The translations under genes were made by a program, and so were the position numbers. A model generated the notes under the pieces. It made no database searches and was not told where the DNA came from. It was given only the letters and a program-made list of their open reading frames with translations. Shown piece after piece: positions 3,148 through 61,335 of a stretch of 64,000 nt of DNA; position 1 is the stretch's first letter, and every line of letters starts with the position of its first letter. The stretch is from Acidovorax soli (GTDB lineage: Bacteria; Pseudomonadota; Gammaproteobacteria; Burkholderiales; Burkholderiaceae_C), in contig NZ_FNQJ01000009.1 of assembly GCF_900107605.1 (NCBI RefSeq), positions 1-64,000 of the forward strand, given 5' to 3'.

Positions 3148-4986
3148 CTAAAACGCTTCTTCGCTGAGCGCGGCGCAGGTGGCATCGCGGCGGTTCACCA
3201 CATTGAGCCAGGCACCAATCTTCGGCAGTTCGTAATGGTAGAAATAGCGTGCAGCGCCCATTCTCCCTGCGCTAGAAGCTACTGAAAGCGCAGCATCCGC
3301 ACGCAGCGTGGCCATTGCCACATCCAGCCAGGTCCAGGCCAGCACCGTATGGCCAAAGGCCTGCATGTAGGGCACGGCGTTGGCCAGGGCCTCCGCCGGG
3401 TTGCCGGTGGCCCAGGCGGCCTGCGTGGCAGCCGCCACCTGCTGCAGGGCATCACCCAGCTGCGCCGCATAAGGCGCCAGTGCGGGCACGGCGACGGCCT
3501 GCGCCATGGTGGCCTGCATGCGCGCGGCCAGCACCTGCAGGCCCCGGCCGTTTTCCATCAGCACCTTGCGGCCCAGCAGGTCGGCGGCCTGGATGCCGTG
3601 CGTGCCCTCGTGGATCATGTTCAGGCGGTTGTCGCGCCAGTACTGCTCCACCGGGAAGTCGCGCGTGTAGCCGTAGCCGCCGTGGATCTGGATGGCCAGC
3701 GAGTTGGCCTCCAGGCAGAACTCGCTGGGCCAGCTCTTGGCGATGGGGGTGAGCACTTCCAGCAGCAGGCGCGCCTCGTCGGCGGCCTCGGCAGCGCCGG
3801 TGTGCTGCTCGTCCACCAGGCGGGCGCAGAACAGGTTGAGCGCCAGCGCGCCCTCGCCATAGCTCTTTTGCGCCAGCAGCATGCGCTTGACGTCGGCATG
3901 CTCGATGATGCGTACCTGGGGCTGGGCGGCGTCCTTGCCGCTGGCACCCATCAGACGGCCCTGCGGGCGGCTCTTGGCGTAGTCCAGGCTGGCGTAGTAG
4001 CCCGCCAGGCCCAGCATGGTGGCGGCCATGCCGATGCCAATGCGCGCCTCGTTCATCATGTGGAACATGCACGCCAGGCCCTTTCCAGGCTGGCCCACAA
4101 GGTAGCCCACCGCTCCCGCCCTGCCCTGCACCGGGTACTTGCCTTCGCCAAAGTTGAGCAGCGTGTTGGTGGTGCCGCGCCAGCCCAGCTTGTGGTTCAG
4201 GCCCGCCAGCGCCACGTCGTTGCGCACGCCGGTCAGCTGGCCTGCGGTATCGACCAGCTTCTTGGGCACGATGAACAGCGAAATGCCGCGCGTGCCCGGC
4301 ACCAGCTTGCCATCGGGCCCCGGAATCTTGGCCAGCACGAGGTGGACGATGTTCTCCGACAGTTCATGCTCGCCCGACGAGATCCACATCTTGTGGCCCG
4401 TGAGGCGGTAGCGTGCGCCGAGCGGGTCGGCCTCGAAGCCCTCACCGTCCGGCACAGCACGTGTAGCCACATCGCTCAAGGATGAGCCCGCCTGCGGCTC
4501 GCTCAGGCACATGGTGCCCGAGAAGCGCCCCGAGAATTCATTGAGCGCAAACACCTGCTTCTGCAGCGGCGTACCGTGCACCATGAGCAGGTTGGCATTG
4601 CCCACGCTCAGCAGACTGGAGCTGATGCTGATCGAGGCCACGGCAAAGAAGGCATTGGCCGCCGCATCCACCGTGTAGGGCAACTGCATGCCGCCAATGT
4701 CGTAATCCTGCGCCGCGCTGAGCATGCCCGAGGCGGCATAGGCGTCGTAGGCATCCTTGGTGGCCTGCGGCAGCGTGACGCGCTCGCCGTCGAAATGCGG
4801 CTCCTGCATGTCCACCGTGCGGTTGAATGGTGCGTACTTCTCGCGCGCGATGCGCTCGCAGGTGTCGAGCACGGCATCAAACGTTTCGCGCGAATGGTCG
4901 GCAAAGCGCTCGCACGTGTTGAGCGACTCGGCCTGGAGCCAGTCGTAGAGCAGGAAATCGAGGGTGGAGCGCAGGGAGGTCGTCAT
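3148..4986 (-). CDS. Acyl-CoA dehydrogenase, long (DmdC/AidB-like) class
   Basis: A 612-residue flavoprotein dehydrogenase. The length and the extended N- and C-terminal helices match the ~600-residue class that includes DmdC (3-methylmercaptopropionyl-CoA dehydrogenase), not the ~380-residue short-chain enzymes. The FAD/acyl-CoA middle domain shows MCLSEPQAGSSLSDV and GHKMWISSGEHE, and the C-terminal domain has GGYGYTRDFPVEQYWRDNR followed by IHEGTHGIQA, whose glutamate is the probable catalytic base. The enzyme would oxidise an acyl-CoA to the trans-2-enoyl-CoA and pass electrons to ETF. Residues about 566-582 are encoded by a copy of a dispersed palindromic element inserted in frame near the C-terminus. 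The exact chain-length specificity is unknown. Confidence 0.92.
   Translation of the reverse strand: MTTSLRSTLDFLLYDWLQAESLNTCERFADHSRETFDAVLDTCERIAREKYAPFNRTVDMQEPHFDGERVTLPQATKDAYDAYAASGMLSAAQDYDIGGMQLPYTVDAAANAFFAVASISISSSLLSVGNANLLMVHGTPLQKQVFALNEFSGRFSGTMCLSEPQAGSSLSDVATRAVPDGEGFEADPLGARYRLTGHKMWISSGEHELSENIVHLVLAKIPGPDGKLVPGTRGISLFIVPKKLVDTAGQLTGVRNDVALAGLNHKLGWRGTTNTLLNFGEGKYPVQGRAGAVGYLVGQPGKGLACMFHMMNEARIGIGMAATMLGLAGYYASLDYAKSRPQGRLMGASGKDAAQPQVRIIEHADVKRMLLAQKSYGEGALALNLFCARLVDEQHTGAAEAADEARLLLEVLTPIAKSWPSEFCLEANSLAIQIHGGYGYTRDFPVEQYWRDNRLNMIHEGTHGIQAADLLGRKVLMENGRGLQVLAARMQATMAQAVAVPALAPYAAQLGDALQQVAAATQAAWATGNPAEALANAVPYMQAFGHTVLAWTWLDVAMATLRADAALSVASSAGRMGAARYFYHYELPKIGAWLNVVNRRDATCAALSEEAF
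3242..3291. repeat. Dispersed palindromic element inside acyl-CoA dehydrogenase
   Basis: The arms AAATAGCGTGCAGCGC and GCGCTAGAAGCTACTGAAAG form an imperfect inverted repeat in which TAGC, T and AGCGC pair. Both arms match the intergenic copy at 1832-1862. The element is in frame on the coding strand and contributes LSVASSAGRMGAARYF near the protein's C-terminus. Confidence 0.6.
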
Positions 4987-5061
4987 GCGGGAAATTATGG
5001 GAGCCGCATCGGGTTATCGCGTGTCCGGTGGGTGACGCGGACCGGCGGCACCTCGGGTGGA

Positions 5062-5082
5062 ATGACCGGTTGAATCGGCCAT
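5062..5082. promoter_or_regulatory. Candidate palindromic operator upstream of acyl-CoA dehydrogenase
   Basis: A 21-base imperfect palindrome with half-sites ATGACCGGTT and AATCGGCCAT around a central G; the arms agree at eight of ten positions. It lies 76 bases before the acyl-CoA dehydrogenase start, where a repressor of acyl-CoA catabolism would be expected, and a closely similar sequence lies upstream of the SDR gene at 1773. The regulator is not identified. Confidence 0.4.
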
Positions 5083-5255
5083 CCATGGCAAGCGTTCACT
5101 GCTTTGGTGAAGCGGACGTTCCGAATCCAATCGAAGCCGCACGTGGTTGCTTCATGCGAGACGCCTCCTATGTCCTGCGGCACACCATACACGCAGGCGT
5201 CACCAGCGATTCGGCTGGGTCGCTGCCTGGTCACTCGTGTTGCCCCAGGACTTTT

Positions 5256-6044
5256 CTAGGCGACGCGGTCCTTCAATCGCGCCATCGTCAGTTGCTCCAA
5301 CCCTTGTTGATAGCGCACAGTGCCGCCGCCCAACGCGGATGTGGCATCACGCGCGGTTTCAAGGACCTGGCGGCAGGCGGCCAGCATTGCGTCCGACGGT
5401 TCCAGTCGCGCTCGTGGGCCGGACACCGTCAGCGCGCCTTGCAACTCACCGTTGACCCCAAAGACTGGTGCCGCAGCAGAAGCAGTTTCGGGGTCGCGCT
5501 CGCCGTACGAAACGGCCCACAACTGCTCGCGAATCTCCTCGTAGCCCCGAGGTGGCGATGCGGAGAACGCGAGCAGGACCTTGCCCGATGCACCTTGGGC
5601 AACGGCGTATTCCTGCCCGATCTGCACGGACGCACGAACCGACCTTGCCGGCTCGGCGCGAAACAGCGCAATGCGCTTGTCGTCTTGCCTTACGTAGAAG
5701 GAAGCCGTCTCGCCAGTGGCCGCGCTCAACTGCTTGAGCAAGGGCTCAATGACATGCCCCACCTGGAAAGAGCGTTGGTAAATCGAAGCGAGCCGCAGTG
5801 GCTGCGGGCCAATGGAGTATTGGCCGTCCGGCAGTTTGCGAATGAAGCCGCCGTGCTCCAAGGCACCGAGTAGACGCAGCACAGTGCTTTTGTAAAGCCC
5901 GGTCCTCCTCGACAGCTCGGTCAACGTGAGCCGGCCCTCGTCGGGTCCAAAAGCGGCGAGCAGAGAAAACGCTTTATCCAGGACAGCAATGCCACTTGAT
6001 TCGGCGGTGTTGGCGGGCGGTGGAGCGGTAGTCGATTCAGTCAT
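5256..6044 (-). CDS. IclR-family transcriptional regulator
   Basis: A 262-residue regulator of normal IclR length. The winged helix-turn-helix covers about residues 18-80 (LTLTELSRRTGLYKSTVLRL is the recognition region) and the rest is the IclR effector-binding domain (ETASFYVRQ, GQEYAVAQGASGKVLLAF). IclR proteins bind small acids or aromatics and repress or activate neighbouring catabolic genes. It is transcribed divergently from the amidohydrolase operon with a 200-base shared control region that holds a tandem 20-base-phased repeat, so it very probably regulates that operon. A Pro/Ala-rich tail of about 15 residues precedes the DNA-binding domain. Confidence 0.93.
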   Translation of the reverse strand: MTESTTAPPPANTAESSGIAVLDKAFSLLAAFGPDEGRLTLTELSRRTGLYKSTVLRLLGALEHGGFIRKLPDGQYSIGPQPLRLASIYQRSFQVGHVIEPLLKQLSAATGETASFYVRQDDKRIALFRAEPARSVRASVQIGQEYAVAQGASGKVLLAFSASPPRGYEEIREQLWAVSYGERDPETASAAAPVFGVNGELQGALTVSGPRARLEPSDAMLAACRQVLETARDATSALGGGTVRYQQGLEQLTMARLKDRVA

Positions 6045-6153
6045 GGAGGCATAGGACGGACGAAATGGCGCGCTGTCTTCAGGCAGCCAAGTCGAAGTGT
6101 GACACGCCGCCGCGGACGCACCGACACATGTCCAAAAGAAGGGTTAACCCGCA

Positions 6154-6182
6154 TTCAAAAGGTCATTTTTTGTTCGTATAGT
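6154..6182 (+). promoter_or_regulatory. Candidate sigma-70 promoter of the amidohydrolase operon
   Basis: TTCAAA at 6154-6159 and TATAGT at 6177-6182 are separated by 17 bases, in an AT-rich stretch of an otherwise GC-rich region. The perfect palindrome GGGTTAACCC at 6141-6150 lies just upstream. The -10 is immediately followed by the tandem repeats at 6181-6214. Confidence 0.45.
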
Positions 6183-6217
6183 TCCATCCAACAGTTCTTT
6201 GTTCCATCCAATAGAAC
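6181..6217. promoter_or_regulatory. Tandem operator, probably for the divergent IclR protein
   Basis: GTTCCATCCAACAG at 6181-6194 is repeated as GTTCCATCCAATAG at 6201-6214, exactly 20 bases later, about two helical turns. The second copy continues to AAC and so has GTTC and GAAC ends. The site overlaps the expected transcription start of the operon and lies 28 bases before the amidohydrolase ATG, which fits repression by a tetramer. Confidence 0.55.
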
Positions 6218-6244
6218 ATCAACACACACTCCAGAGACGCAAGC

Positions 6245-9278: not shown

Positions 9279-9288
9279 GGAGAGCGTC

Positions 9289-15788: not shown

Positions 15789-16571
15789 TCAATGTCCCCC
15801 CGCCTGTGCATCGGCCACGGCGGAGCCCAGGTAGGCTTCTTGCACGCGCGCATTGGCGCGCACCTTGTCGGGGGTGTCAAAGGCGATGACCTCGCCATAC
15901 ACCACCACGGCAATCTTGTCGGCCAGGCCGAACACCACGCCCATGTCGTGCTCCACCGTGAGCAGGGTGCGGCCTTCGGTCACCTCCTTGATGAGGTGGA
16001 TGAAGCGCGTGGTTTCGCTGCGGCTCATGCCGGCGGTGGGCTCGTCGAGCAAGATCACATTGGCGCCGCCGGCAATGGTGACGCCGATCTCCAGGGCGCG
16101 CTGCTCGGCGTAGGTCAGGTTCACGGCCAGGGTGTCACGCTTCTTGTCGAGCTTGATCATCTCCATGAGCTGCCTGGCGCGCTCGTTGGCGTCGTCCAGC
16201 TTCGAGAGAAATCGCAGGAAGGTGTACTTGTAGCCCATGCTCCAGAGCACGCCGCAGCGCAGGTTTTCAAACACACTCAGCTTGGGAAAGATGTTGGTGA
16301 TCTGAAAGCTGCGCGACAAGCCCATGCGGTTGATTTCGTAGGGTGCCTTGCCGTCGATGCGCTGGCCATTGAGCAGCACCTCGCCGCTGGTGGGGCCAAA
16401 GCGCCCGCTGATCAGGTTGAACAGCGTGGACTTGCCCGCGCCATTCGGGCCGATGATGGCCACCCGCTCGCCGGGCTTCACGGCCAGGTTCACGCCACGG
16501 ATGATTTCTGTCTTGCCAAAGCTCTTGCGCAGGTCACGCAGTTCGAGCGCACACGGTGCGTTTGTCGCCAT
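15789..16571 (-). CDS. livG: ABC transporter ATP-binding protein LivG
   Basis: A 260-residue ATPase, second ATP-binding subunit of the same importer. Walker A is canonical (GPNGAGKST, residues 41-49); the signature region reads LTYAEQRALEIG and Walker B VILLDEPTAGMS, as usual for LivG. The ATG at 16571 is preceded at eight bases by GGGGGAGG and lies two bases after the livM stop; an open frame extends further upstream to 16655 but overlaps livM and has no LivG similarity. Confidence 0.94.
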   Translation of the reverse strand: MATNAPCALELRDLRKSFGKTEIIRGVNLAVKPGERVAIIGPNGAGKSTLFNLISGRFGPTSGEVLLNGQRIDGKAPYEINRMGLSRSFQITNIFPKLSVFENLRCGVLWSMGYKYTFLRFLSKLDDANERARQLMEMIKLDKKRDTLAVNLTYAEQRALEIGVTIAGGANVILLDEPTAGMSRSETTRFIHLIKEVTEGRTLLTVEHDMGVVFGLADKIAVVVYGEVIAFDTPDKVRANARVQEAYLGSAVADAQAGGH

Positions 16572-23077: not shown

Positions 23078-24562
23078 ATGAACCCCCATGCCGACTGCCC
23101 CCCCGCCCCACCGTTGGACCTGACGGACGACTGCGGCGGTTTTGCGAGCCTGGGACCGGCATTCTTTACCCACCTGAATCCCACGCCTTTGCCCCAGCCA
23201 TACTGGGTGGGCACCAGCGGCGGCGTGGCGGATCTGCTGGGCCTGGACGCCGCCTGGCTGGCGTCCGACGAAGCCCTGCGGGTGTTCACGGGCAATGCCT
23301 GCCCTCCCGGCAGCCGCCCGCTGGCCAGTGTCTACAGCGGCCACCAATTTGGCGTCTGGGCAGGACAACTGGGCGACGGGCGCGCGATCCTGCTGGGCGA
23401 AACCACCGGTGGGCTGGAAGTGCAGCTCAAGGGCAGCGGCCGCACCCCATACTCGCGCATGGGCGATGGGCGCGCGGTGCTGCGCTCCAGCATCCGCGAG
23501 TTTCTGTGCAGCGAAGCCATGCATGCACTGGGCATACCGAGCTCGCGGGCTCTGTGCGTCACCGGATCACCCGCCCCCGTGCACCGCGAGGAGACAGAGA
23601 CCGCCGCCGTAGTGACCCGGGTGGCACAGAGCTTCATCCGCTTCGGCCATTTCGAGCATTTCGCCGCGCGCGACATGGAAAAAGAACTGCGCACGCTGGC
23701 CGACTATGTGATCGACCGCTATTACCCGGCCTGCCGCACTGCACCGCAGCCGGGTGGCAACGCCTATGCAGCCTTGCTGCAGGCCGTGAGCGAGCGCACG
23801 GCAACGATGGTGGCGCAATGGCAGGCCGTGGGTTTTTGCCACGGCGTGATGAACACCGACAACATGAGCATCCTGGGCCTGACGATCGACTACGGCCCCT
23901 TCCAGTTCCTGGATGCGTTCGTGCCCGGCCATGTCTGCAACCACAGCGATACCCAGGGCCGATACGCCTACAACCGCCAGCCCAACGTGGCTTACTGGAA
24001 CCTGTTTTGCCTGGCCCAGGCACTGCTGCCGCTGATCGGCGACCAAGAGCTGGCCCAAGCGGCCCTGGTATCGTACAAAACCGTCTTCTCCACCGAATTC
24101 ATGGCCCGCATGCGCGCCAAGCTGGGCCTTGTGCAGGAGGGTGCCGGCGATGCCGATCTGATCGACGGCATCTTGCTGCTGCTGGCCAAAAACGGCGTGG
24201 ACTACACCATCTTCTGGCGCCGCCTGTCGCAGGCGGTGGCGCACAACGACTTCGAGCCCGTGCGTGACCTGTTTGCAGACCCTGCGGGTTGGGACCGGTG
24301 GGAGCTATCTTATTCAGCGCTTCTGGCGCTTATGAATAAAGAGCTATCGGCCGATTTGATGCTAAAAACCAACCCCAAGTTCGTGCTGCGCAACCACCTG
24401 GGCGAGCAGGCCATCCGCGCGGCGAAACTTGGCGATTTTTCCGAGCTACGCACCTTGCAGCGCCTGCTGGAGCGTCCGTTCGACGAACACCCCGGCCACG
24501 ATGCCTGGGCCGACTTTCCGCCCGACTGGGCGTCCTCCATCGAGATCAGCTGTTCATCATGA
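23078..24562 (+). CDS. selO: Protein adenylyltransferase SelO (YdiU)
   Basis: A 494-residue SelO-family pseudokinase that transfers AMP from ATP to Ser/Thr/Tyr of target proteins and is tied to redox stress responses. The family motifs are present: [18 protein letters not shown], the lysine-containing LQLKGSG-like segment ([19 protein letters not shown] region), NTDNMSI and the metal-binding [12 protein letters not shown]. The C-terminus ends in SCSS like E. coli YdiU. Residues about 409-430 (encoded at 24302-24366) come from a dispersed palindromic element inserted in frame, making the protein slightly longer than E. coli's 478. The stop overlaps the msrB start by ATGA. Confidence 0.93.
24302..24366. 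repeat. Dispersed palindromic element inside selO
   Basis: AGCGC at 24316-24320 and GCGCT at 24326-24330 form the core stem, extended by TTATTC on the left and GAATAA on the right; GAGCTATC flanks it at 24302 and again at 24341. The stretch is clearly AT-richer than the rest of selO. It is read in frame and adds about 20 residues ([20 protein letters not shown]) to the protein. Confidence 0.65.
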
Positions 24563-37559: not shown

Positions 37560-37608
37560 TCCGTGCCGCACGATCCTGTCGTGCCAATAACGCTAATAAA
37601 ACAGAAGC

Positions 37609-37645
37609 TGCTAGCGCTTACCCAATAAGCGCTAGCAGAATTTTT
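37609..37645. repeat. Palindromic element between gyrA and serC, also a likely terminator
   Basis: TGCTAGCGCTTA (37609-37620) and TAAGCGCTAGCA (37626-37637) are a perfect twelve-base inverted repeat with a five-base loop, followed by GAATTTTT. It is the best-preserved copy of the dispersed element and could terminate gyrA transcripts. It ends about 15 bases before the serC ATG. Confidence 0.75.
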
Positions 37646-37657
37646 GATCAAGATACG

Positions 37658-38767
37658 ATGACACGCCCGTACAACTTCTCGGCCGGCCCGGCCGCCATTC
37701 CCCCCGAAGTCCTGGAACAGGCTGCCGCCGAGATGCTGGACTGGCACGGCAGCGGCATGGGCGTGATGGAGATGAGCCACCGCGGCAAGGAATTCATCTC
37801 GATCTACGAGGCTGCCGAAGCCGACTTGCGCGAGCTGCTGGGCGTGCCGGCCCATTTCAAGATTCTCTTCATGCAAGGCGGTGGCCTGGCAGAAAACGCC
37901 ATCGTGCCCCTCAACCTGTCGCGAGCCGGTGCGGTCGATTTCGTGGTGACCGGCAGCTGGAGCCAGAAGTCGCAAAAAGAGGCGCGCAAATACGCCTCGG
38001 AAGTCAACGTGATCGCATCCGGTGAAGACAGCGGATTCACCGCCCTGCCCGACCCCGCAGGCTGGACCGTGAGCCGGGGTGCCAGCTATGTGCACATTTG
38101 CAGCAATGAAACCATCAACGGCGTCGAATTCCACCAGCTGCCCGACCTCAAGGCACTGGGCAGCGATGCGCCGCTGGTGATCGATTTCTCATCCCATGTG
38201 GCCTCGCGCACCGTGGACTGGTCGCGCGTCGGCCTGGCCTTCGGTGGTGCGCAAAAGAACCTGGGGCCCGCCGGCCTCACGCTGGTGGTGGTGCGCGAAG
38301 ACCTGCTGGGCCAGGCTCTGCCGATATGCCCCAGCGCGTTCGACTATCGCATCGTGGCCGACAACCACTCCATGTACAACACGCCGCCCACCTGGGGTAT
38401 CTACGTGGCGGGTCTGACCTTCCAGTGGCTCAAACGCCAGCGCGAGGGTGCGCACAGCGGCGTGGCGGCAATCGAGCAGCGCAACATCGCCAAGGCCCGC
38501 TTGCTGTACGACGCCATTGACCAGTCGCAGTTCTATGTCAACAAGGTGGCGGCCAACTGCCGCTCGCGCATGAACGTGCCCTTCTTCCTGCGCGACGAAA
38601 GCCGCAACGATGCCTTCCTGGCAGGTGCCAAGGAGCGCGGGCTGCTGCAGCTCAAGGGGCACAAGTCGGTGGGCGGCATGCGCGCCAGCATCTACAACGC
38701 CATGCCCCTGGCCGGTGTGCAGGCGCTGGTGGACTACCTGCGAGAATTTGAACAAAAAAACGCCTGA
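37658..38767 (+). CDS. serC: Phosphoserine aminotransferase
   Basis: A 369-residue class V aminotransferase for serine (and pyridoxal phosphate) biosynthesis. It starts [15 protein letters not shown], a family hallmark, and binds pyridoxal phosphate through Lys200 in [19 protein letters not shown] and [12 protein letters not shown] are also typical. It starts the serC-pheA-tyrA-aroA/cmk group, an order common in Burkholderiales. Confidence 0.96.
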
Positions 38768-40789: not shown

Positions 40790-40910
40790 CCCCCCTGAGT
40801 CGCCTGCGGCACCTTCCCCCCAGGGGGACGCCCCCGGTGGCCTGGCAAAGCCAGTTCCACGGGGGCACTGGTGCGGGGGCACACCAGTTGCACAGGCACC
40901 TGGCCTCAGA
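40790..40910. repeat. GC-rich palindromic spacer before aroA/cmk
   Basis: A stretch dominated by short G- and C-runs (CCCCCCTGAGTCGCC, CCAGGGGGACGCCCCC) that can form several hairpins, including CTGGTG (40868-40873) with CACCAG (40882-40887). It resembles the GC-rich intergenic repeats common in Comamonadaceae, but no second copy lies in this window. It may reduce or end transcription from tyrA. Confidence 0.4.
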
Positions 40911-40945
40911 AACGCTCTTTGAGCTGGAATGGACGAACCACACCG

Positions 40946-42976
40946 ATGTACAGCACCGCATTTCTTGATCTGCCGCCCCTGCAAGCCGCGTCGGGCGACG
41001 TCCACCTGCCCGGCTCCAAGAGCATCTCCAACCGCGTGCTGCTGCTGGCGGCACTGAGCGCCGGCACCACCACCGTGCACGACCTGCTCGCGTCCGACGA
41101 CACCCGCGTGATGCTGGATGCGCTGCGCCAGATCGGCTGCACGGTGGATGAAGCGGGCAGCACCGTGCGCATCACCGGCCTGGGTGGCAGCGCACCCCGA
41201 TCGCCGGCCCGACTCTTCATGGGCAACGCCGGCACCGCCATGCGCCCTTTGACGGCGGCGCTGGCGCTGCTGGGCGGCGAGTTCGAACTGTCGGGTGTGC
41301 CCCGCATGCATGAGCGCCCGATTGGCGACCTCGTTGATGCACTGCGCCAGCTGGGCTGCCAGATCGACTACCTCGGCAACGATGGCTACCCTCCCTTGCG
41401 CATCGCGCACGACCAGGGTGTTCCCGCCCTCTCCCTGGCTGCGCCCATCCAGGTGCGTGGCGATGTATCGAGCCAGTTCCTCACGGCGCTGCTCATGGCG
41501 CTGCCGCTGGCGGCAACGCACCAGGAGGTGGTCATCGAGGTGGTGGGCGAACTGATCTCCAAGCCCTACATCCACATCACGCAGCAGTTGCTGGCACGCT
41601 TTGGCATCGTGGTCGAGCACCAGAACTGGCAGCGGTTCACGATTGCAGCGGGCAGCCGCTACCAATCGCCCGGTGACATTCATGTGGAGGCAGATGCTTC
41701 ATCCGCTAGCTACTTCATAGCACTTGGCGCAATAGCAACAAGCGCCAGTGATCAAAAAGGTATAAAAATACAAGGCGTCGGCCTCGATTCCATTCAGGGC
41801 GACATCCGCTTTGTCGAAGCCGCCCGGGCCATGGGCGCCGTGGTCACTGGTGGCCCCAACTGGCTGCAGATAGCACGCGGAGCATGGCCCCTGAAGGCCA
41901 TCGATCTGGACTGCAACCACATCCCCGATGCCGCCATGACCCTGGCCGTGATGGCGCTGTACGCCGAGGGAACGACCACGCTGCGCAACATCGCCAGCTG
42001 GCGCGTGAAGGAAACCGACCGCATCGCCGCGATGGCCACCGAGCTGCGCAAGCTCGGCGCCACGGTGCAAGAGGGTGCAGACTTCATCTGCGTGACACCG
42101 CCCGCCCGCGAGCAGGACTGGAAGCCCGCGAGCATCCATACCTACGACGACCACCGCGTGGCCATGTGCTTTTCGCTGGCAGCCTTCAATCCAGCCAACC
42201 TGCCGGTGCGCATCGAAGATCCAAAGTGTGTCGCCAAGACGTTTCCAGACTATTTCGAAGCACTGTTCTCGGTATCCCGGGCAGAGACAGCCCGTATCCC
42301 GGTGATCTGCATCGACGGCCCCACCGCCTCGGGCAAGGGCACGGTGGCGGCGGCCGTGGCGCAGCGGCTGGGCTACCAGTTTCTCGACTCGGGCGCCATG
42401 TACCGCATCACCGCCCTGGCCGCCGCGCGTGCCGGCCTGACCATCGACGCAGAGCATGAAACGCGCATAGGCGCCCTGGCCCAGACCCTGCCCGTGCACT
42501 TTGACGGTGGCCAGGTGCTGCTTGGCGGCGACGACGTGACCGATGCCATCCGCACCGAAGAAGCCGGCATGAACGCATCCCGCGTGTCGGCCCTGCCCGC
42601 TGTGCGCACAGCGCTGGTTCAACTCCAGCACAGCTTTCGGCGCCTGCCAGGCCTGGTGGCAGATGGCCGCGACATGGGCACGGTGATCTTCCCGAACGCC
42701 CCCTTGAAGGTGTACCTGACAGCCAGTGCCGCCTGCCGCGCCGAGCGTCGTTACAAACAGTTGATTTCAAAGGGTTTTTCAGCTAGTATCGGCGACCTTC
42801 GCGCGGATCTGGAGGCACGCGATGCACGGGACAGTTCCCGCAGCGTCGCACCCCTCCAGCCCGCGCAGGACGCTCTGGTCCTGGACAACTCCCACTTGAC
42901 GATTGATGAAGCCGTCGATCAGGTGTTGGCCTGGTGGCAGGAGCGGCAGCCTTTCGCAGTCTCTGCGCAAGGCTGA
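40946..42976 (+). CDS. aroA: Fused EPSP synthase / cytidylate kinase
   Basis: A single 676-residue reading frame joins two enzymes. Residues 1 to about 440 are 3-phosphoshikimate 1-carboxyvinyltransferase ([45 protein letters not shown]). From about residue 451 comes CMP kinase ([30 protein letters not shown]). The fusion links aromatic synthesis and pyrimidine salvage only physically; genomes of this family are known to carry it. Residues about 251-277 contain an in-frame palindromic element, making the region after DASSASYF longer than in other EPSP synthases. ATG at 40946 is chosen over an upstream GTG at 40871. Confidence 0.95.
41697..41775. repeat. Dispersed palindromic element inside aroA
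   Basis: CACTTGGCGC (41721-41730) and GCGCCAGTG (41742-41750) form the core inverted repeat, flanked by GCTAGCTACTTCATAGC and by the AT-rich ATCAAAAAGGTATAAAAATAC. The base composition is unlike the rest of aroA. The coding frame is kept and reads [19 protein letters not shown]. coli and Burkholderia enzymes have a shorter link here. Confidence 0.65.
42751..42792. repeat. AT-rich patch in the cmk part, possible degenerate element
   Basis: TTACAAACAGTTGATTTC and GGGTTTTTCAGCTAGTATC stand out by base composition, and the end resembles an element half-site. The encoded protein ([11 protein letters not shown]) aligns with E. coli Cmk without extra residues, so this would be a replacement and not an insertion. 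It may simply be biased codon use. Confidence 0.3.
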
Positions 42977-43183
42977 ACAGTGTGGGGCCCTTCTTGAAAA
43001 CGGGGCCCCCAGGCAGCGCCGAAAGGCCTTGCCACAGGCCCATGCAGCCCTTCTCGCGCGCCAGCGCCCAGGCTGTTTGGATCGATAACCTAACCCGCGG
43101 TTCTACCGCAAAAAACCACCGCAAGCAGCTATAAAAACAATAGCAATGGTGCTATTGGAATCCTGTTTGTGGCAAGGAAACAC
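42977..43183 (+). promoter_or_regulatory. rpsA leader region with hairpins
   Basis: A 207-base leader before rpsA. It has GGGGCCC repeats around 42982-43011, GGCCTTGCCACAGGCC near 43026, and the hairpin CAATAGCA/TGCTATTG (43138-43145 and 43150-43157) 27 bases before the ATG. In E. coli, S1 represses its own mRNA through leader hairpins; a similar role here is an inference. Confidence 0.4.
43130..43160. repeat. Dispersed palindromic element in the rpsA leader
   Basis: AGCAGCTATAAAAACAATAGCA is followed by the perfect eight-base inverted repeat CAATAGCA-ATGG-TGCTATTG at 43138-43157. The AGCAGCTAT word is shared with the family. It would fold close to the rpsA ribosome-binding site (AAGGAA at 43174). 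Confidence 0.5.
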
Positions 43184-44944: not shown

Positions 44945-45265
44945 ATGACCCAAGATTCCATGACCCGCTCAGACCTCGTTGAAGAACTGGCCGAACGCTT
45001 TGGTCAGCTCACCCACCGCGATGCCGAATTCGCGGTCAAGACCATTCTGGATGCCGTGGGCGACGCCCTGGTGCGCGGGCACCGCATCGAGATCCGGGGC
45101 TTTGGCAGCTTCTCAGTGAACCACCGCCCTCCCCGCATGGGCCGCAATCCGCGCAGCGGTGAAGCAGTGGCCATTCCTGAAAAGCGCGTGCCGCATTTCA
45201 AACCGGGAAAGGCACTTCGGGAGGCTGTGGACCAGCGAACAGCCGAGCTCGATCAACCCAACTGA
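44945..45265 (+). CDS. ihfB: Integration host factor subunit beta
   Basis: A 106-residue HU/IHF protein. [17 protein letters not shown] opens the helical body, and [19 protein letters not shown] carries the beta arm and the intercalating proline. [15 protein letters not shown] ends the core. It bends DNA as a heterodimer with IhfA. The rpsA-ihfB-lapA-lapB order is shared with many proteobacteria. An ATG at 44960 (MTRSDL) is the alternative start. Confidence 0.96.
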
Positions 45266-45282
45266 CGCAAAAATGCTTCTGA

Positions 45283-45330
45283 TTTGATAGCTTCTGGCGA
45301 TTTATGGATCGACGTTAGAGGCAATTTTCA
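45283..45330. repeat. Dispersed palindromic element between ihfB and lapA
   Basis: TTTGATAGCTTCTGGCG is followed by a less symmetric ATTTATGGATCGACG and TTAGAGGCAATTTTC. The order GATAGCT-CTGGCG-loop-CG-TTAGAGGC matches the plan of the family. It is intergenic and AT-rich. Confidence 0.55.
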
Positions 45331-45420
45331 TGCGTAAGCCATGAACGAACTGCCTCGCCCCGCGCTGCGGTCAGGCCCGATGGCCGAGCTCTTAGAATCC
45401 CCCCACCACTGGGGATCTCC

Positions 45421-53654: not shown

Positions 53655-53692
53655 AGGGCCCATATCGCCCGAAGTGCCGCCAATTACGCCTT

Positions 53693-53745
53693 GATCGATA
53701 GCTGCCAGCGCTTTACCCATATGCCCTGGCAGCCTATTTCACCTT
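53693..53745. repeat. Dispersed palindromic element downstream of mrpG
   Basis: GATAGCTGCCAGCGC opens the element, and GCTGCCAG (53701-53708) pairs with CTGGCAGC (53726-53733) around a 17-base loop. It lies between convergent genes and could help to end transcription. Confidence 0.6.
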
Positions 53746-53753
53746 AATCCTGC

Positions 53754-56700
53754 TCACGCAGTACCAAACCCGCCGCCTCCGGGGGTGTGGATCTCGAACA
53801 CATCGCCCGGCTGCATCTCGGCCTGGCCGATGTGGTCGAGCAGTTCGACCCGTCCACTGGCGCGCACCACCTTGTTGATGCCGGGCGCGCCGACCTTGCC
53901 ACCGGCCATGCCAAACGCCCCGTGGTGGCGCCCGTTCGACAGGATACTGGCCGTCATCGGCTCCAGAAAACGGATGCGCCGCACCCCACCGTTGCCCCCC
54001 GCCCAGCGGCCGCCGCCACCCGAGTTGGCACGGATGGCATAGCTTTCCAGTCGTACCGGAAAGCGGAATTCGAGGATTTCCGGATCGGTCAGGCGCGAAT
54101 TGGTCATGTGCGTCTGCACCACGCTCGTGCCACCAAAGCCGCCCACCAGGGCACCCGCGTCATCGAACACGCCGCCTGCACCACTGCCGCCGGAAATGGT
54201 CTCGTAGTACTGGTAGCGCGCGTTGCCGAAGGTGAAGTTGTTCATGGTGCACTGGCTGCCCGCCATCACACCCAGCGCCCCCAGCAAGGCATTGGTGATG
54301 CAGGTGGAGGTCTCCACATTGCCCGCCACCACCGAGGCCGGCGGGTGGGGGTTGAGCATGCTGCCGGGCGGAATGACGACGTTGAGCGGCTTCAGGCAGC
54401 CCGCGTTCAGCGGGATGTCGTCGTCCACCAGCATGCGAAACACATACAGCACCGCAGCCATGCACACCGCCGTGGGCGCGTTGAAGTTGTTGGTCTGCTG
54501 CGGGCTGGTGCCGGTGAAGTCGATGGTGGCGCTGCGGTTGTGTGCGTCCACCTTCACGGCCACGCTGATCTGCGCGCCGTTGTCGAGCGGCAAGGTGAAC
54601 GCGCCATCCTTCAACCGCGTGATCACGCGGCGCACGGATTCTTCGGCGTTGTCCTGCACATGGCGCATGTAGGCCTGCACCACGTCCAGGCCGAACTCGC
54701 CCACCATGCGGCGCAGCTCCTGCTGGCCTTTTTCGTTGGCCGCGATCTGCGCACGCAAATCGGCCATGTTCTGCTGCGGGTTGCGGCTCGGGTACTCACC
54801 GCTTTGCAGCAGCGCAATCATTTCCGCCTCGCGCAGCACGCCGCGCTCCACCAGCTTCACGTTGTTGATCTGCACGCCCTCTTCCTCGATGCGCGTGGAA
54901 AACGGCGGCATGGAACCAGGGGTGGTGCCGCCCACATCGGCATGGTGCCCACGGCTGCCCACATAGAACCTGGGCGTGGCTTCATCGGCGATGTAGACCG
55001 GCGTGATGACCGTGATATCCGGCAGGTGCGTGCCGCCGTGGTAGGGATCGTTGAGCACGAACACGTCGCCGGGCTGCATCTTGCCCGCGCCGGATTGCAA
55101 GTCCGTTCCGGCCTGGCGGATCACCGTCTGGATGCTCTCGCCCATGGACCCGAGGTGCACCGGCATGTGCGGCGCATTGGCGATCAGGTGGCCCGCTGCG
55201 TCGAACAGCGCACAGCTGAAATCGAGACGCTCTTTGATGTTGACCGAGTAGGCCGTGTTCTGCAACTGCAGCCCCATCTGCTCGGCGATGTTCATGAACA
55301 GGTTGTTGAAGACTTCGAGCAGCACCGGGTCCACCGTGGTGCCCACGGCATGATGCGCGGCACGGGCCACGCGGCGCTTGAGCAGCAGGTGATCCAGCTC
55401 GGTCAGCTCGGCCTCCCAGCCGGGCTCGACGATGGTTGTCGCGTTCTTCTCGGCAATGATGGCCGGGCCGGGGACCACATCACCGGGGCGCAAATCCTCG
55501 CGTACCACCAGCGCGGCGTCGTGCCACGCGGCCACGCCGTCGATGCCACCGGTGTACATGCGCACGGTGCTGCGGCGCGGCACCGTGCGCGCGGGTTGCA
55601 GCGCGTGGCGCGGCTCCACAGGCGCATCGCCGGGCACCACGGCCTCGACCGAGACAGCCTCCACCACCAGGCCCTTGCCCTGCATGAGGAAGGCAAAGCG
55701 CTGGCGGTAGGCGGCCTCGAACGTGGCGGTGATCTCGGCCATGGGGCCAAACGGCACGATGAGCGCGGAATCGCTGCCCTCGTAGCGCACATGCACGCGC
55801 CGGTGCACCACGGCTGTGCCGCTGCCCGACTGCTGGCGCTCCAGCTCGGTGCACGCGATGGTGGCCAGTTGCTCCAGCGTGGCGGCAATGCCCGCCAGCG
55901 CCTCGGGCCCCAGCTTGGTTTCCACCGCCTGCTCGCGGATCACATTCTGGTCAGCCAGGCCCATGCCGTAGGCGCTGAGCACGCCCGCCAGCGGGTGCAC
56001 CAGCACGCGCGCCATGCCCAGCGCATCGGCCACCAGGCAGGCATGCTGGCCGCCCGCGCCGCCAAAGCACTGCAGGGTGTAGCGCGTCACGTCGTAGCCG
56101 CGCGCCACGCTGATCTTCTTGATGGCATTGGCCATCTGCTGCACGGCGATCTGGATGAAGCCGTGGGCCACATCCTCGGCACTGCGGCCTGTCTGCTGCG
56201 CCAGCGCGCCAAACTTCTGCACCACGGTATCGCCATCCAGCGCCTCGTTGGCCGAGTGGCCAAAAACTTTCGGAAAATGCGCGGGCTGGATCTTGCCGAC
56301 CATCACGTTCGCATCGGTCACGGCCAGCGGCCCGCCCCGGCGGTAGCTGGCGGGGCCGGGGTTGGCGCCCGCACTCTCGGGGCCGACGCGAAAACGGGCG
56401 CCGTCAAAACCCAGGATGGAGCCCCCACCCGCTGCCACGGTATGGATGCTCATCATGGGCGCGCGCATGCGCACGCCGGCGACCTGCGTTTCGAACTCGT
56501 GCTCGAACGCGCCCGCATAGTGGCTCACATCGGTGCTGGTACCGCCCATGTCAAAGCCGATGACCTTGTCGTGGCCCGCCAAGCCTGCGGTGCGTGCCAT
56601 GCCGACGATGCCACCCGCGGGGCCCGACAGGATCGCGTCCTTGCCCTGAAAACGGTGCGCATCCGTCAGCCCCCCCGACGACTGCATGAAAAACAGCGGC

Positions 56701-57416: not shown

Positions 57417-57430
57417 TTTTTTCTACTCAA

Positions 57431-57480: not shown

Positions 57481-57604
57481 GAAATTGACTACCGCAACGC
57501 CGCAGAGCGCGCAGTCTGGTCATGCATGCCCGAGGGCACACGCCGCAAACGGACCCACTCGCCGATGTCACGGTTGAGCGCATCGCCGGCATTCAGCGCA
57601 CCAA

Positions 57605-57916
57605 TCAGGCCATTTTCGTGAATCTCGCGGTAGCGCTGTACTGGAGGCGATCCGCATCGACAGCGGCGAAGCTGGCTTCTTCGCCTTTCTTTTGCGAGAT
57701 TACAACACCGAGCCCCCCATTTTTGAACGCTTCATTCACCAGTTGTGCAGACGAATCGATGGGGCCCGACGCATTGGTTGCACTGCCCGCAGATTTCCCG
57801 GAAAGCGCCTTGCAGAAAGCCCCCATGGCACGGGATGTGCATGTAGATATTGTGGGCAAATCGAAGGAAATCTGGCGATATTCAGGCAAAACACCTACCC
57901 CCCAAACGACCTGCAT
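57605..57916 (-). CDS. Uncertain small ORF, unknown product
   Basis: A 103-codon frame on the minus strand whose C-terminal half (SSAQLVNEAFKNGGLGVVIS, then QKKGEEASFAAVDAD) looks like real protein in composition. The N-terminal part is not convincing and no ribosome site is clear. No family is recognised. It could be a gene remnant. Confidence 0.25.
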   Translation of the reverse strand: MQVVWGVGVLPEYRQISFDLPTISTCTSRAMGAFCKALSGKSAGSATNASGPIDSSAQLVNEAFKNGGLGVVISQKKGEEASFAAVDADRLQYSATARFTKMA

Positions 57917-57968
57917 TCGATAGAGTGAATCCTCATATTTTTGACATCCAACCCTGCGGAGCTATTTC

Positions 57969-58952
57969 ATGAAGCGTCGAATCTTCCCCGTCACCGCACT
58001 CGGATTGGCACTGGCTGCCGGCCTGTCTGTCACACCGGCTTTTGGCCAGACCAAGTGGGACCTGGCCGCCGCCTACCCGGCCACCAACTTCCACACGGAA
58101 AACATGGTGCAACTGGCCAGCGACGTGGACAAGGCCACGGGCGGCAAGCTCAAGATCACGGTGCATGCCAACGCCGCGCTGTTCAAGGCCCCCGAAATCA
58201 AGCGCGCCGTGCAAGGCGGCCAGGCGCAGATGGGCGAGATCCTGCTGGCCAACTTCCAGAACGAATGGCAGCTGTTTGGCGTGGATGGCCTGCCCTTCCT
58301 GGCCGACAGCTACGACGCGTCCAGGAAGCTCTACGCCGCCCAAAAGCCCTTCCTGGAAAAGAAGCTGGCGGAGCAGGGAATGATGCTGCTGTACGCCGTG
58401 GCCTGGCCACCCCAGGGCATCTACACCAAGAAGCCGCTGGCCTCCGCCGCCGACCTCAAGGGCATCAAGTGGCGCGCCTACAGCCCCGCCACCGCGCGCA
58501 TTGCCGAGCTGGTGGGCGCCCAGCCCGTGACGGTGCAGGCTGCCGAGTTCTCGCAGGCACTGGCCACGGGCGTGGTCGAATCGACCATGACCTCGGGCGC
58601 CACAGGAGTGGACAGCAAGCTGTACGAGCACCTCAAGTTCTATTACGACACCCAGGCCTGGCTGCCCAAAAACGCCCTGCTGGTGAACAAGAAGGCGTTT
58701 GATGCGCTGGACAAGCCCCTGCAGCAGGCCCTGCTCAAAGCCGGTGCCGACGCCGAGGCGCGCGGCTGGGCCAACAGTGCCAAGGTCAACGCCGACACCG
58801 TGGCCAAGCTCAAGGCCAACGGCATGGAAGTGGTGGCACCACCTGCCGCACTGAAGGCCGACATGGGCAAGGTGGGCGACACCATGCTCAAGGAATGGCT
58901 CGACAAGGCCGGCCCCGAGGGCAAGGCGCTGATCGACGCCTACCGGAAGTAA
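57969..58952 (+). CDS. TRAP transporter substrate-binding protein (DctP family)
   Basis: A 327-residue periplasmic receptor. The signal peptide ends at AFGQ, followed by KWDLAAAYPATNFHTENM. DctP hallmarks ADLKGIKWRAYSP (with the carboxylate-binding arginine region) and VESTMTSGATGV follow. The ligand is probably an organic acid; the divergent oxoprolinase gene suggests pyroglutamate or a relative as a possibility. Confidence 0.92.
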   Translation: MKRRIFPVTALGLALAAGLSVTPAFGQTKWDLAAAYPATNFHTENMVQLASDVDKATGGKLKITVHANAALFKAPEIKRAVQGGQAQMGEILLANFQNEWQLFGVDGLPFLADSYDASRKLYAAQKPFLEKKLAEQGMMLLYAVAWPPQGIYTKKPLASAADLKGIKWRAYSPATARIAELVGAQPVTVQAAEFSQALATGVVESTMTSGATGVDSKLYEHLKFYYDTQAWLPKNALLVNKKAFDALDKPLQQALLKAGADAEARGWANSAKVNADTVAKLKANGMEVVAPPAALKADMGKVGDTMLKEWLDKAGPEGKALIDAYRK

Positions 58953-58977
58953 GCCGGCACCTTTGAAGACTGTGCCC

Positions 58978-59487
58978 ATGCGCCGCCTGCTGGACTTTCT
59001 GTACGACGGCGCCGCCGCCCTGGCGGCGCTTTTCATGGTCGGCCTGCTGGGGATGGTGCTGCTGTCCATCGCCAGCCGGCAGTTCCACTTCCATGTGCCG
59101 GGCACCGATGCCTATGCGGGCTACCTGATGGCCGCAGCCGGTTTTCTGGCGCTCGCCCACACCTTGAAGCGCGGCGAACACATCCGCGTCACGCTGCTGC
59201 TCAACTTTCTGAAGGGCGGCGCCAAGAAGGCGTTCGAGATCTGGGCCCTGGCCATTGCCACACTGCTGGCGCTGCTGTTTGCCACCTACAGCTGCAAGCT
59301 GGCCTGGCAGTCGCACGGGTTCCACGACATCTCCACCAGCAGCGACGCCACACCGCTGTGGATTCCACAAATCGCCATGGCCGTTGGCACGGTGATTCTG
59401 GCGATCGCATTCTTGGACGAACTGGTGCTGGAAATGATGGGCAGGCGTGCGGATGCCTCATCCGGCGAAGCATTGCGCAATGAATAA
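58978..59487 (+). CDS. TRAP transporter small permease (DctQ family)
   Basis: A 169-residue four-helix membrane protein. FHVPGTDAYAGYLMAAAGFLALAHTL and the basic KRGEHIRVTLLL stretch are typical of DctQ. ATG at 58978 is used; TTG at 58963 would add five residues. It lies between the receptor and the large permease. Confidence 0.9.
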   Translation: MRRLLDFLYDGAAALAALFMVGLLGMVLLSIASRQFHFHVPGTDAYAGYLMAAAGFLALAHTLKRGEHIRVTLLLNFLKGGAKKAFEIWALAIATLLALLFATYSCKLAWQSHGFHDISTSSDATPLWIPQIAMAVGTVILAIAFLDELVLEMMGRRADASSGEALRNE

Positions 59488-59504
59488 ACCCGGCACAACC
59501 TACC

Positions 59505-60809
59505 ATGAGTGATCTCGCCATCACCGGCCTGCTCGTACTGTCGCTGTTCCTGATCCTGGGCAGCGGCGTATGGATCGGGCTCACCCTCTCCGGCGTCGCC
59601 TGGATCGCCATGCAGCTGTTTTCCGCGCGCCCGGCGGGCGATGCGATGGCGGTGACCATCTGGGGCAGCGCCTCCAGCTGGACCCTCACGGCCCTGCCGC
59701 TGTTCATCTGGATGGGCGAAATCCTGTTCCGCACCCGGCTGTCGCAGGACATGTTCAAGGGCCTGGCCCCCTGGGTGCAGGCGCTGCCGGGCCGGCTGCT
59801 GCACACCAACGTGGTGGGCTGCACCATCTTTGCCGCCGTGTCGGGATCGAGCGCCGCCACCTGCGCCACCATCGGCAAGATGACGCTGCCCGAGCTGACG
59901 CGCCGGGGCTACCCCGAGCACATGGTGGTGGGAACGCTGGCCGGTGCCAGCACGCTGGGCCTGCTGATCCCACCGTCGATCATCATGATCGTCTACGGCG
60001 TGTCAGCCGAGGTGTCGATCTCGCAGCTGTTCATTGCGGGCGTGCTGCCGGGCATCCTGCTGGCAGCCCTGTTCTCGGGCTACATCGTGGTCTGGGCGCT
60101 GCGCCACCCCGAACAGGTGCCGGCCGCCGACGTGCGCATGGGCTTCATGCAGAAGCTGTCCGAATCGCGCAGCCTGATCCCCGTGATGCTGCTGATTGCG
60201 GCCGTGCTGGGCTCCATCTACACCGGATTTGCCACCGCCACCGAGGCGGCTGCCGTGGGCGTGGTGGGCTCGCTGGTGCTGTCGGCCGTGCAGGGCTCGA
60301 TGAACTGGGGCACGTTCAAGGATTCGCTGATGGGCGCGACGCGCCTGTACTGCATGATCGCGCTGATCCTGGCAGGGGCCGCGTTCCTCACGCTGGCCAT
60401 GGGCTACATCGGCTTGCCGCGCCACCTGGCCGAGTGGATTGCATCGCTGGGCCTGAACCAGGCCCAACTCATCGTGGCACTGGCCATTTTCTTCATCATC
60501 CTCGGGTGTTTCCTGGACGGCATCTCGATGGTGGTGCTGACCATGGGTGTGCTCATGCCCACGGTGCAGGCCGCAGGCATCGACCCCATCTGGTTCGGCA
60601 TCTTCATCGTGCTGGTCGTCGAAATGGCGCAGATCACGCCCCCTGTGGGCTTCAACCTGTTCGTGCTGCAAGGCATGACGGGCCGCCAGTTGCCCTGGAT
60701 CACCAAGGTCACCCTGCCCATGTTTTTGCTCATGTGCGGCGCGGTGGCGCTGATCTACGTCTTCCCTGGCATCGTGACCTGGCTGCCGCAGCAGATGGCG
60801 GCGCGCTGA
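59505..60809 (+). CDS. TRAP transporter large permease (DctM family)
   Basis: A 434-residue membrane protein with about twelve helices. VSGSSAATCATIGKMTLPEL, LAGASTLGLLIPPSIIMIVYG and the NLFVLQGMTG segment are DctM hallmarks. With DctQ it uses the Na+ gradient to take up the acid bound by the receptor. Confidence 0.94.
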   Translation: MSDLAITGLLVLSLFLILGSGVWIGLTLSGVAWIAMQLFSARPAGDAMAVTIWGSASSWTLTALPLFIWMGEILFRTRLSQDMFKGLAPWVQALPGRLLHTNVVGCTIFAAVSGSSAATCATIGKMTLPELTRRGYPEHMVVGTLAGASTLGLLIPPSIIMIVYGVSAEVSISQLFIAGVLPGILLAALFSGYIVVWALRHPEQVPAADVRMGFMQKLSESRSLIPVMLLIAAVLGSIYTGFATATEAAAVGVVGSLVLSAVQGSMNWGTFKDSLMGATRLYCMIALILAGAAFLTLAMGYIGLPRHLAEWIASLGLNQAQLIVALAIFFIILGCFLDGISMVVLTMGVLMPTVQAAGIDPIWFGIFIVLVVEMAQITPPVGFNLFVLQGMTGRQLPWITKVTLPMFLLMCGAVALIYVFPGIVTWLPQQMAAR

Positions 60810-60846
60810 GCGCCGGACGCAACCACCGGATGTGGACAATGGCGCC

Positions 60847-61233
60847 ATGCTGAATGTTCTGTCCATTTGTATCGGCGCCAGCCTGGGGGCGCTGGCCCGC
60901 TGGCGTCTGGGCCTGTGGCTCAGCGGCACCGGTGCGCTGTTGCCATGGGGCACGCTGGTGGCCAATCTGGTGGGTGGCTACCTCATCGGTGTGTGCGTTG
61001 CTGCCTTCCAGGCGCTGCCCCACATCGACCCGGTGTGGCGGCTGGCGCTGGTCACGGGGTTTCTGGGGGCGCTGACCACGTTTTCCAGCTTTTCGGCCGA
61101 GGTGGTGACCATGCTGCAGCAGCAGCGCTACCTGATGGCATCGGGCACCACCGTGCTGCACCTGGGGGGCTCGCTGCTCATGACCATACTCGGGCTGCAG
61201 ACTGTGGCACTGGCGCTGTCCACCCGCCCGTAG
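60847..61233 (+). CDS. crcB: Fluoride exporter CrcB/Fluc
   Basis: A 128-residue four-helix protein. GALARWRLGLWLSG, GTLVANLVGGYLIG with the conserved asparagine, and TGFLGALTTFSSFSAE with the phenylalanine box region are the Fluc signature. It forms an antiparallel dimeric fluoride channel. A GTG at 60832 is in frame, but ATG at 60847 (MLNVLSICIGASLG) fits the family. No fluoride riboswitch is visible in the 37-base gap before it. Confidence 0.93.
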   Translation: MLNVLSICIGASLGALARWRLGLWLSGTGALLPWGTLVANLVGGYLIGVCVAAFQALPHIDPVWRLALVTGFLGALTTFSSFSAEVVTMLQQQRYLMASGTTVLHLGGSLLMTILGLQTVALALSTRP

Positions 61234-61276
61234 CGGGCTGCCTGGCCAATGCAGCGCAGCGCTGGCAGCGCCTTGA

Positions 61277-61335
61277 ATTGCTATTATTTTTATAGCTCAC
61301 AACACATGACAGAAAAGCGCAAGAGCCCTGTTTAA
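61277..61335. repeat. Candidate dispersed palindromic element upstream of the LOG gene
   Basis: ATTGCTATTATTTTTATAGCTC has GCTAT (61280-61284) and ATAGC (61292-61296) as inverted repeats, and AT-rich DNA continues to about 61335. The GCTAT...ATAGC pattern matches other copies, but the AGCGC core is missing. Confidence 0.4.

Follow-up and report, generated by a model that had tools for sequence, protein, structure and literature searches.

The window analysed here is the first 64,000 nucleotides of contig NZ_FNQJ01000009.1 (C61) of the Acidovorax soli genome (assembly GCF_900107605.1, here G000; 4.13 Mb, 90 contigs). It carries copies of an AT-rich palindromic repeat of about 70 bp, which lie between genes and, in one case, in frame within selO. 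The repeat appears to belong to an old, lineage-restricted family resembling the repetitive extragenic palindromic (REP) sequences. Copies were scored with R1, a covariance model in which the central stem was given as structure and which was built from alignment A2, that is, from 29 places of G000 taken from matches to the pattern AGCTGCTAGCGCTT. The window was scanned with the filters off, and the following copies were found, with neighbours named by Pfam:

37588..37661, + strand: full copy in the intergenic region between gyrA-type and serC-type genes; R1 57.4 bits, E 1.1e-12; fold z -5.5
53682..53755, + strand: full copy; R1 59.4 bits, E 3.1e-13; fold z -3.9
45271..45344, + strand: full but degenerate copy just 3' of a small called gene (44945-45265); R1 39.4 bits, E 1e-7
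24300..24373, + strand: in-frame copy in selO, between the W and NPKFVLRN codons; R1 24.9 bits, E 0.001
23078..24562, + strand: selO (protein adenylyltransferase), host of the in-frame copy; Pfam PF02696, E 5.2e-127
61276..61349, + strand: partial copy, marginal, with both arms and the central hairpin absent; R1 20.0 bits, E 0.022

The last bases of the copy at 37588..37661 overlap the start codon of serC (37658), and that at 53682..53755 lies between the end of an antiporter-subunit gene (53654) and the stop of a convergent hydantoinase-type gene (53754). Searches were extended to an 864-kb sample of G000 (the window and forty 20-kb stretches), in which the selO copy had an E-value of 0.013. 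The 89 matches in this sample (E≤0.05) merged into 83 places, 72 of which were kept for column counts, copies that were not 74 nt long being left out.

The unit consists of an AT-rich left arm ending in ATAGC, a central hairpin CTAGCGCTT..AAGCGCTAG and a right arm GGCCAWTTTGRCTT. In the column frequencies of the 72 copies, positions 2 to about 68 are AT-rich and stand out from the GC-rich surroundings. On the left the consensus reads RTTRCTAYT, then a run of A or T and ATAGCT at positions 17-22; the centre has CTAGCGCTT at 24-32, a variable loop and AAGCGCTAG at 40-48; and the right side has GGCC at 50-53, followed by AWTTTGRCTT and A-rich ends. G20 is invariant and C21 nearly so. Individual copies in the 864-kb sample have 28-58% GC, and none is arranged in a tandem array. 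The RNA fold of the centre was better than that of shuffled sequences for the well-kept copies (z -6.3, -5.5, -3.9), and near -0.5 for two others (-0.7 for the copy at 45271..45344 and -0.5 for that in selO). Pooling 308 copies, orthologues included, gave weak covariation of the central stem at six pairs (z 3.1 to 4.6). The consensus fold of the first alignment, A2, contained no more than 3 pairs, an effect of having chosen its places by a match in the left arm. We also considered that the whole unit might form three RNA hairpins (left GCTAT..ATAGC, right GGCC..GGCC), which is plausible by eye, and rejected it: covariation in the outer arms did not exceed z 2.2, so the arms look like sequence, not structure. 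Rfam 15 gave no match at the window copies or in 12 loci (E≤5).

Within the window alone, the half-site GATAGCTGCTAGCGC (up to 3 mismatches) is barely significant, with 9 matches against 2.3 expected and 1/100 shuffles as high, as would suit a short palindromic motif arising by chance or from base composition. The whole genome leaves this explanation virtually no credibility. The exact 17-mer GATAGCTGCTAGCGCTT occurs 3+2 times in G000 and its reversed control not at all, and AGCTGCTAGCGCTT, with at most 2 mismatches, matches 132+129 times where its reversed control matches 25+22 times. The 83 copies of the 864-kb sample correspond to about 400 per genome. With R1, G000 as a whole gave at least 150 matches (the best 150 of 2079 candidates), 147 of them at E<0.001; these are matches and not places, as one place may appear on both strands. 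All 24 genomes of the genus that were searched had at least one match at E≤1e-4, and 22 of them had from 83 to at least 122. The element-poor members were G002 and G005, with 1 and 3 matches. At the same threshold, none of 16 genomes from other families of the order had a match, which also refutes chance. Clearly, copies exceed chance in the whole genome and the family is a dispersed palindromic one in a betaproteobacterium, with copies in frame within conserved enzymes, as the sequence-only reading of the window had held.

A search of other Comamonadaceae, which that reading had suggested, revealed rich genomes scattered among the genera. Of 299 genomes searched with the palindrome pattern, about 32, in 16/141 genera, were rich (at least 60 forward plus reverse matches, tallied by eye), and the controls had a few matches; as the pattern is a palindrome, each perfect copy is tallied once per strand. 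Richness varies within genera, with forward counts of 317, 64 and 17 in genus g32, and of 184, 11 and 10 in g89; g104, g137 and g144 likewise include both rich and poor species. Among the 80 loci listed, of at least 119 stretches with the exact core, the carriers include Acidovorax, Comamonas, Simplicispira, Giesbergeria, Extensimonas, Paenacidovorax, Diaphorobacter, Polaromonas and Rhodoferax. Carriage by plasmids or phages was rejected, since 3/72,556 plasmid records and 0/50,697 phage records matched; degenerate copies there would be missed, because a single copy served as the query.

Most copies of the 864-kb sample are intergenic (70/83), and the remaining 13 lie in genes (7 along and 6 against the gene); genes were called by a purpose-built codon-usage caller, so that small genes and starts may be off. 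Of the 65 intergenic copies that could be placed, 45 were between co-directional and 15 between convergent genes; 5 others could not be placed. Divergent regions had only 5/65 copies, against 30.6% expected from their length. The median distance from the copy centre to a gene 3' end was 44 nt, compared with 180 nt for random placing. Among co-directional neighbours, 23 copies pointed with the genes and 24 against them.

Stability between species was assessed by comparing about 215 kb of contig C41 with the syntenic stretches of G041 and G052 (about 88% identical). For 26/29 own sites, G041, G052 or both had a scored copy at the corresponding position. Another 21 sites were first detected in these two relatives; of these, 1 had an own copy, 10 had an own region that was unscored and 10 had no own region; several of the unscored regions appeared in the alignments as visibly degenerate copies. 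For the constraint test we used the 20/29 own sites at which both orthologues were present with lengths of 40-130; the sites were ascertained only in our own genome, and the information content of each position was taken from 44 own copies elsewhere. Between G041 and G052, noncoding high-information positions differed in 34/376 cases (9.0%), in contrast to 130/567 (22.9%) in the flanks (p 1.5e-8). Middle-information positions differed in 69/411 cases (16.8%) and low-information ones in 42/218 (19.3%; high versus low, p 5e-4). Gap cells numbered 0, 0 and 5 in the high, middle and low classes, and 44 in the flanks. The contrast was weaker at the 12 sites with equal-length pairs, where element identity was 80.5%, against 77.6% and 65.0% in the flanks. 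The low divergence of informative intergenic positions relative to the flanks indicates constraint and not mere decay, so the intergenic copies appear to be under purifying selection or homogenisation. The spread of copy states had been read as the decay of a once-mobile family; with 26/29 sites shared and intergenic positions constrained, that reading is not supported, the 10/21 relatives' sites without a scored own copy weighing on the other side.

At one C41 site (55950; L226:15950-16023) the central hairpin is inverted between G041 (TTATTGGATAA) and G052 (TTATCCAATAA), with the loop ATTGGAT in the former and ATCCAAT in the latter, and 1/25 mismatch after inversion against 4 in direct comparison. 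Loop inversion as a general process was rejected: this was 1 clear case in 64 orthologous pairs (32 sites), and the loops of unrelated copies are orientation-neutral. Another site (194537; L233:14537-14610) has a variant copy whose palindrome, GCTGCTGGCGCAC..GTGCGCCAGCAGC, is longer and of another sequence; all three species compared keep this variant.

Six in-gene places were compared with solved homologues, and they showed two long additions, three additions of 3 to 5 residues, and one case with none. The element stretch of MoeA is 29 residues longer than in 1fc5, and that of AcnA 13 residues longer than in 2b3x. ArgF has 3 residues more than 4f2g, with the flanking K-L and Y-Q.F..P residues common to both, TruB has 2+2 extra residues relative to 1r3f, and AroA has 5 relative to 3nvs and 7tm4, the DASSASYF motif being common to all. 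The SelO query lacks 3 residues relative to 6eac. Further host genes, named like these by NCBIfam and Pfam, are rlmD, purL, an addA-like gene and folP. Lineage-specific absence was seen in acnA, where the in-frame stretch of G004, G018 and G005 falls short of that in G000 by 33 nt, and of that in G001 and G007 by 39 nt. The idea that copies in genes would, like Rickettsia elements, generally lengthen their proteins was not supported, as only the MoeA and AcnA additions are long. Residues shared with distant families, which would speak against insertion, were found in part (DASSASYF of AroA, YQ.F..P of ArgF) and not in SelO. Taken together, the family is partly built into enzymes and, judging from these protein comparisons, mostly by replacement.

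The replacement is best followed in selO. Of 46 SelO rows, 9 had no usable anchor and 37 entered the tree; each was assigned by eye to element, remnant or none. Between W and the NPKFVLRN codons, a well-kept element is present in 14 genomes of genera g1, g136 and g152 (e.g., G011, G342, G197), a remnant in 10 (G002, G004, G010, G013, G316, G239, G133, G074, G101, G104; five further genera), and unrelated codons in 13. The segment has 23 residues in 24/24 element and remnant rows. In the 13 element-free rows it has 23 residues in G005, G080, G063 and G084, 22 in G324, 25 in seven and 32 in G027. The copy is placed within an old helix, with no length gained. In the tree made without this segment, all element and remnant rows fall in one 27-row group (support 82/70), which also includes the element-free G005, G324 and G080, the other ten element-free rows being outside. 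Element or remnant versus none takes 4 changes on this tree, e.g., one gain and three losses. The simplest reading would be one replacement of an older segment, perhaps length-neutral, followed by erosion where the family was lost; more than one event is possible, because the tree fork is not strongly supported.

Copies at some gene starts resemble signal peptides (L232:10304-10374 and 16488-16561, L220:1475-1548). The G041 orthologue of L232:10304-10374 reads MKKIAASALLISAGALFGA by hand translation, and L232:16488-16561 resembles a lipoprotein signal. At such starts the element may have been taken up as an export signal.

Some places in the window resemble the repeat less closely:

41697..41765, + strand: element-like stretch over aroA codons; no R1 match at E≤10
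3225..3298, - strand: half motif in an acyl-CoA dehydrogenase gene; R1 14.8 bits, E 0.58
43093..43148, - strand: rpsA 5' leader hairpin, a non-member resembling the left arm; R1 E 0.57

The weak R1 matches of the window were those at 43148-43093, 3298-3225, 57418, 72 and 33267 (E 0.57 to 4.3), and the places 1832, 20127 and 41697 had no match at E≤10. In the alignments of the rpsA/aroA region, which 13/29 relatives' loci entered and the other loci failed by flank match, the aroA stretch was present in all 13 relatives, and its left part lies over the universal DASSASYF motif. The acyl-CoA dehydrogenase place showed no length change among 13 aligned relatives. The rpsA leader was kept in 14/14 aligned sequences (G000 and 13 relatives), so the place at 43130 is not a dispersed copy. 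Thus, of the ten places that the sequence-only reading had assigned to the family, 37609, 45283 and 53693 are strong, 24302 is significant and 61277 marginal, while 43130 is the rpsA leader, 3242 a half motif, and 1832, 20127 and 41697 are unmatched. The short palindromic family itself is real and beyond chance; its unit is about 70 bp, and about half of those places hold. Of three in-enzyme copies said to add residues, that in AroA does have 5 extra but falls mostly on the universal DASSASYF codons, SelO gains none and the acyl-CoA dehydrogenase is unchanged in length.

The rpsA leader (window 43093-43168) forms a small hairpin with paired changes in its stem (AATAGCAATGGTGCTATT, GGTAGC..GCTACC) and has no Rfam match; it is possibly an S1 autoregulation site. 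Next to it, aroA and cmk form a single open frame (window 40871-42976), joining EPSP synthase to cytidylate kinase.

We assign a probability of roughly 0.45 to the following account: the repeats are old, lineage-restricted and REP-like, they spread in trans long ago by replacement, and the intergenic copies are now selected at transcript ends. We infer that a trans-acting enzyme would have spread the copies by replacing target DNA (delete-and-insert, not plain insertion). As the spread is proposed to have replaced target DNA, in-gene copies would have persisted only if the reading frame and, approximately, the length stayed the same. The intergenic copies would now be under purifying selection, because the hairpin would serve the cell at the ends of transcripts, most likely by protecting or processing mRNA as a 3'-end hairpin that works in either orientation. 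In a lineage that loses the maintaining factor (G002, G005, many genera), copies would erode and remnants stay, as in selO. Several observations weigh against this account. No candidate for the spreading enzyme was identified. Two of the four folded window copies fold no better than shuffles, covariation of the central stem is weak in the 72 G000 copies (z ≤2.3), and that of the outer arms is absent above the level given. Stem pairing is similar in intergenic (9.6/13, 59 copies) and in-gene copies (9.0/13, 13 copies; p 0.36). In coding stretches the element as a whole changes no more slowly than its surroundings: 5.1% of high-, 15.8% of middle- and 11.3% of low-information positions differ, compared with 8.3% in the flanks. 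Copies are also lost or degrade, as 10/21 relatives' sites have no scored own copy, and gene conversion among copies could mimic constraint. The function at transcript ends is the interpretive part of the account, and a role in DNA binding is nearly as likely: with the stem covariation weak and that of the arms absent, an RNA role is not demanded and DNA binding fits equally.

As an explanation of the whole family, a site bound by a protein that organises the chromosome, or by another DNA-binding protein, at the dyad CTAGCGCTT..AAGCGCTAG between AT-rich arms and best tolerated just past gene ends, is unlikely, though it is to be taken seriously. The protein, and not the transcript, would then constrain the sequence, and its loss would let the family erode. 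This would explain the orientation independence, the position-specific constraint with weak pairing covariation and arms conserved without covariation, and the near-absence of the family in G002 and G005. However, hundreds of 60-70 bp sites had to be copied, so that a copying process would be needed as well, and a transcript role explains at least equally well why few copies lie between divergent genes. A once-mobile family now decaying without function would account for the degenerate and partial copies of the window, the wide differences in copy number within a genus (as in g32) and the relatives' sites that lack a scored own copy; the constraint on intergenic positions and the sharing of own sites with at least one of the two relatives speak against it, and we consider it quite improbable. 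Intrinsic terminators of common family origin are suggested by the hairpin near gene 3' ends and by the T often found at positions 56-58 of the right arm. They are hard to credit, given that the orientations are equal in co-directional settings, though the sequence beyond the hairpin is asymmetric, and that 13/83 copies lie inside genes.

A REPIN-like population was also considered, in which the genomes' single-copy Y1 transposase, of the REP-associated tyrosine transposase (RAYT) type, would copy and maintain the repeats in trans. PF01797 matches are present in 44/47 genus genomes, mostly as one gene of about 240 aa, and in 30/32 genomes of a mixed set of rich and poor genomes. In other genera, 8/23 RAYT-type loci have a copy near the gene, and in L353 (G273) and L357 (G290) copies lie within 120 nt on both sides of it, one L353 copy at E 0.016. 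The background in the G000 sample is 47/736 genes with a copy within 120 nt of the start and 58/736 with one within 30 nt of the stop, against which the 23 loci gave 5 (start) and 5 (stop). This proximity stays a lead, because rich genomes should have a higher background and some of the loci are orthologous. On the other hand, none of the 18 RAYT-type loci examined in the own genus has an adjoining copy at E≤0.1, a PF01797 match is present in the element-poor G002, G005, G239, G324 and G343 and lacking in the element-rich G202, and the unit has no GTAG or GTGG foot. The element-poor G316 is also without a PF01797 match. The RAYT-type protein of these genomes presumably resembles the non-REP group 1 of RAYTs. 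Altogether, an REPIN-like population is improbable, and RAYT as the spreading enzyme in the own genus was rejected as unsupported, as copies do not adjoin the gene in the loci examined and abundance does not track it. Six PF01797 loci that were fetched are IS200-type, and G062 has 36 strong matches to IS200-type Y1 transposases, 34 of them of equal score, an IS expansion apparently unrelated to the repeat.

A more specific and rather doubtful idea is that the family spread by overwriting, in which single-stranded hairpin copies would anneal at arm-like ends and replace the DNA between, as in recombineering. Coding targets might in this way keep frame and length, and the trans-acting factor would be one whose loss erodes the family, a proposal to which we give equally little weight. 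SelO illustrates it: the 23 codons from W to NP are the element and equal in length those of the element-free G063 and G084, and the segment is 2 residues shorter than in seven other outgroup rows. On the overwriting view, a replacement in the ancestor of at least eight genera is conceivable at similarly long odds. In ArgF of the element-poor G005, arm-like codons stand on both sides and could be a remnant. If true, overwriting would be a novel route by which repeats are taken into proteins. Apart from that, the family, of several hundred copies, is found in well-known environmental and plant-associated genera, the constraint on intergenic copies means that a function could be tested by deleting them, and its presence in some species and absence from close relatives allow a search for the maintaining gene.

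In the open-licence literature searched, the family was found in print only as two unexplained motifs from 2017, and, in the parts of texts covered, the core strings turned up only in an unrelated occurrence. Table 7 of PMC5217627 lists GCTTAT(N)5AAGCG as a potential novel motif of Acidovorax ebreus TPSY, with 114 copies (44 convergent, 59 co-oriented, 4 divergent, 5 in genes), and the same paper gives ATAGCT(N)22CAAAAG for Polaromonas naphthalenivorans CJ2, with 125 copies, 18 of them in genes. By our comparison, both motifs as listed there agree with portions of the present consensus, correctly spaced, and they have the same gene-end context. The entries are only motif pairs in single genomes, and the portion of the paper drawn on here has no unit, family, conservation, in-gene analysis or function.

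Like the GTAG-type REPs and REPINs, as described in part of PMC3733652, the present repeats are short palindromes in many copies, mostly downstream of genes and sometimes inside them. Unlike them, they are single units of about 70 bp with conserved arms and, in the own-genus loci examined, no adjoining RAYT-type gene. The foot of the unit is ATAG (position 17: A 0.88, G 0.10; 72 copies), with no GTAG consensus. The BRE of Comamonadaceae and Bordetella are also dispersed, with some copies in genes (PMC3110155, in part); they are described as 75-91 bp long, with 69% GC in Bordetella and partly tandem, which differs from the present family. As for miniature inverted-repeat transposable elements, the consensus ends are by eye not inverted repeats of each other, and there are few clean empty sites in which to look for a duplication. 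The CGTC tag, a mark of the Rickettsia element/CGTC repeat, is at neither end of the consensus. For the Rickettsia palindromic elements, as for the present repeat, no dedicated transposase is known. As far as part of PMC3733652 describes them, these elements are like the present ones in standing in frame within conserved enzymes. The present in-gene copies differ in that they mostly replace codons or add 3-5 residues, so that a repeat sequence would have entered essential enzymes through a replacement that nearly preserves length, unlike the added-on insertions of Rickettsia. Moreover, unlike in Rickettsia, the hosts are GC-rich and of a free-living type, and the intergenic copies are constrained.

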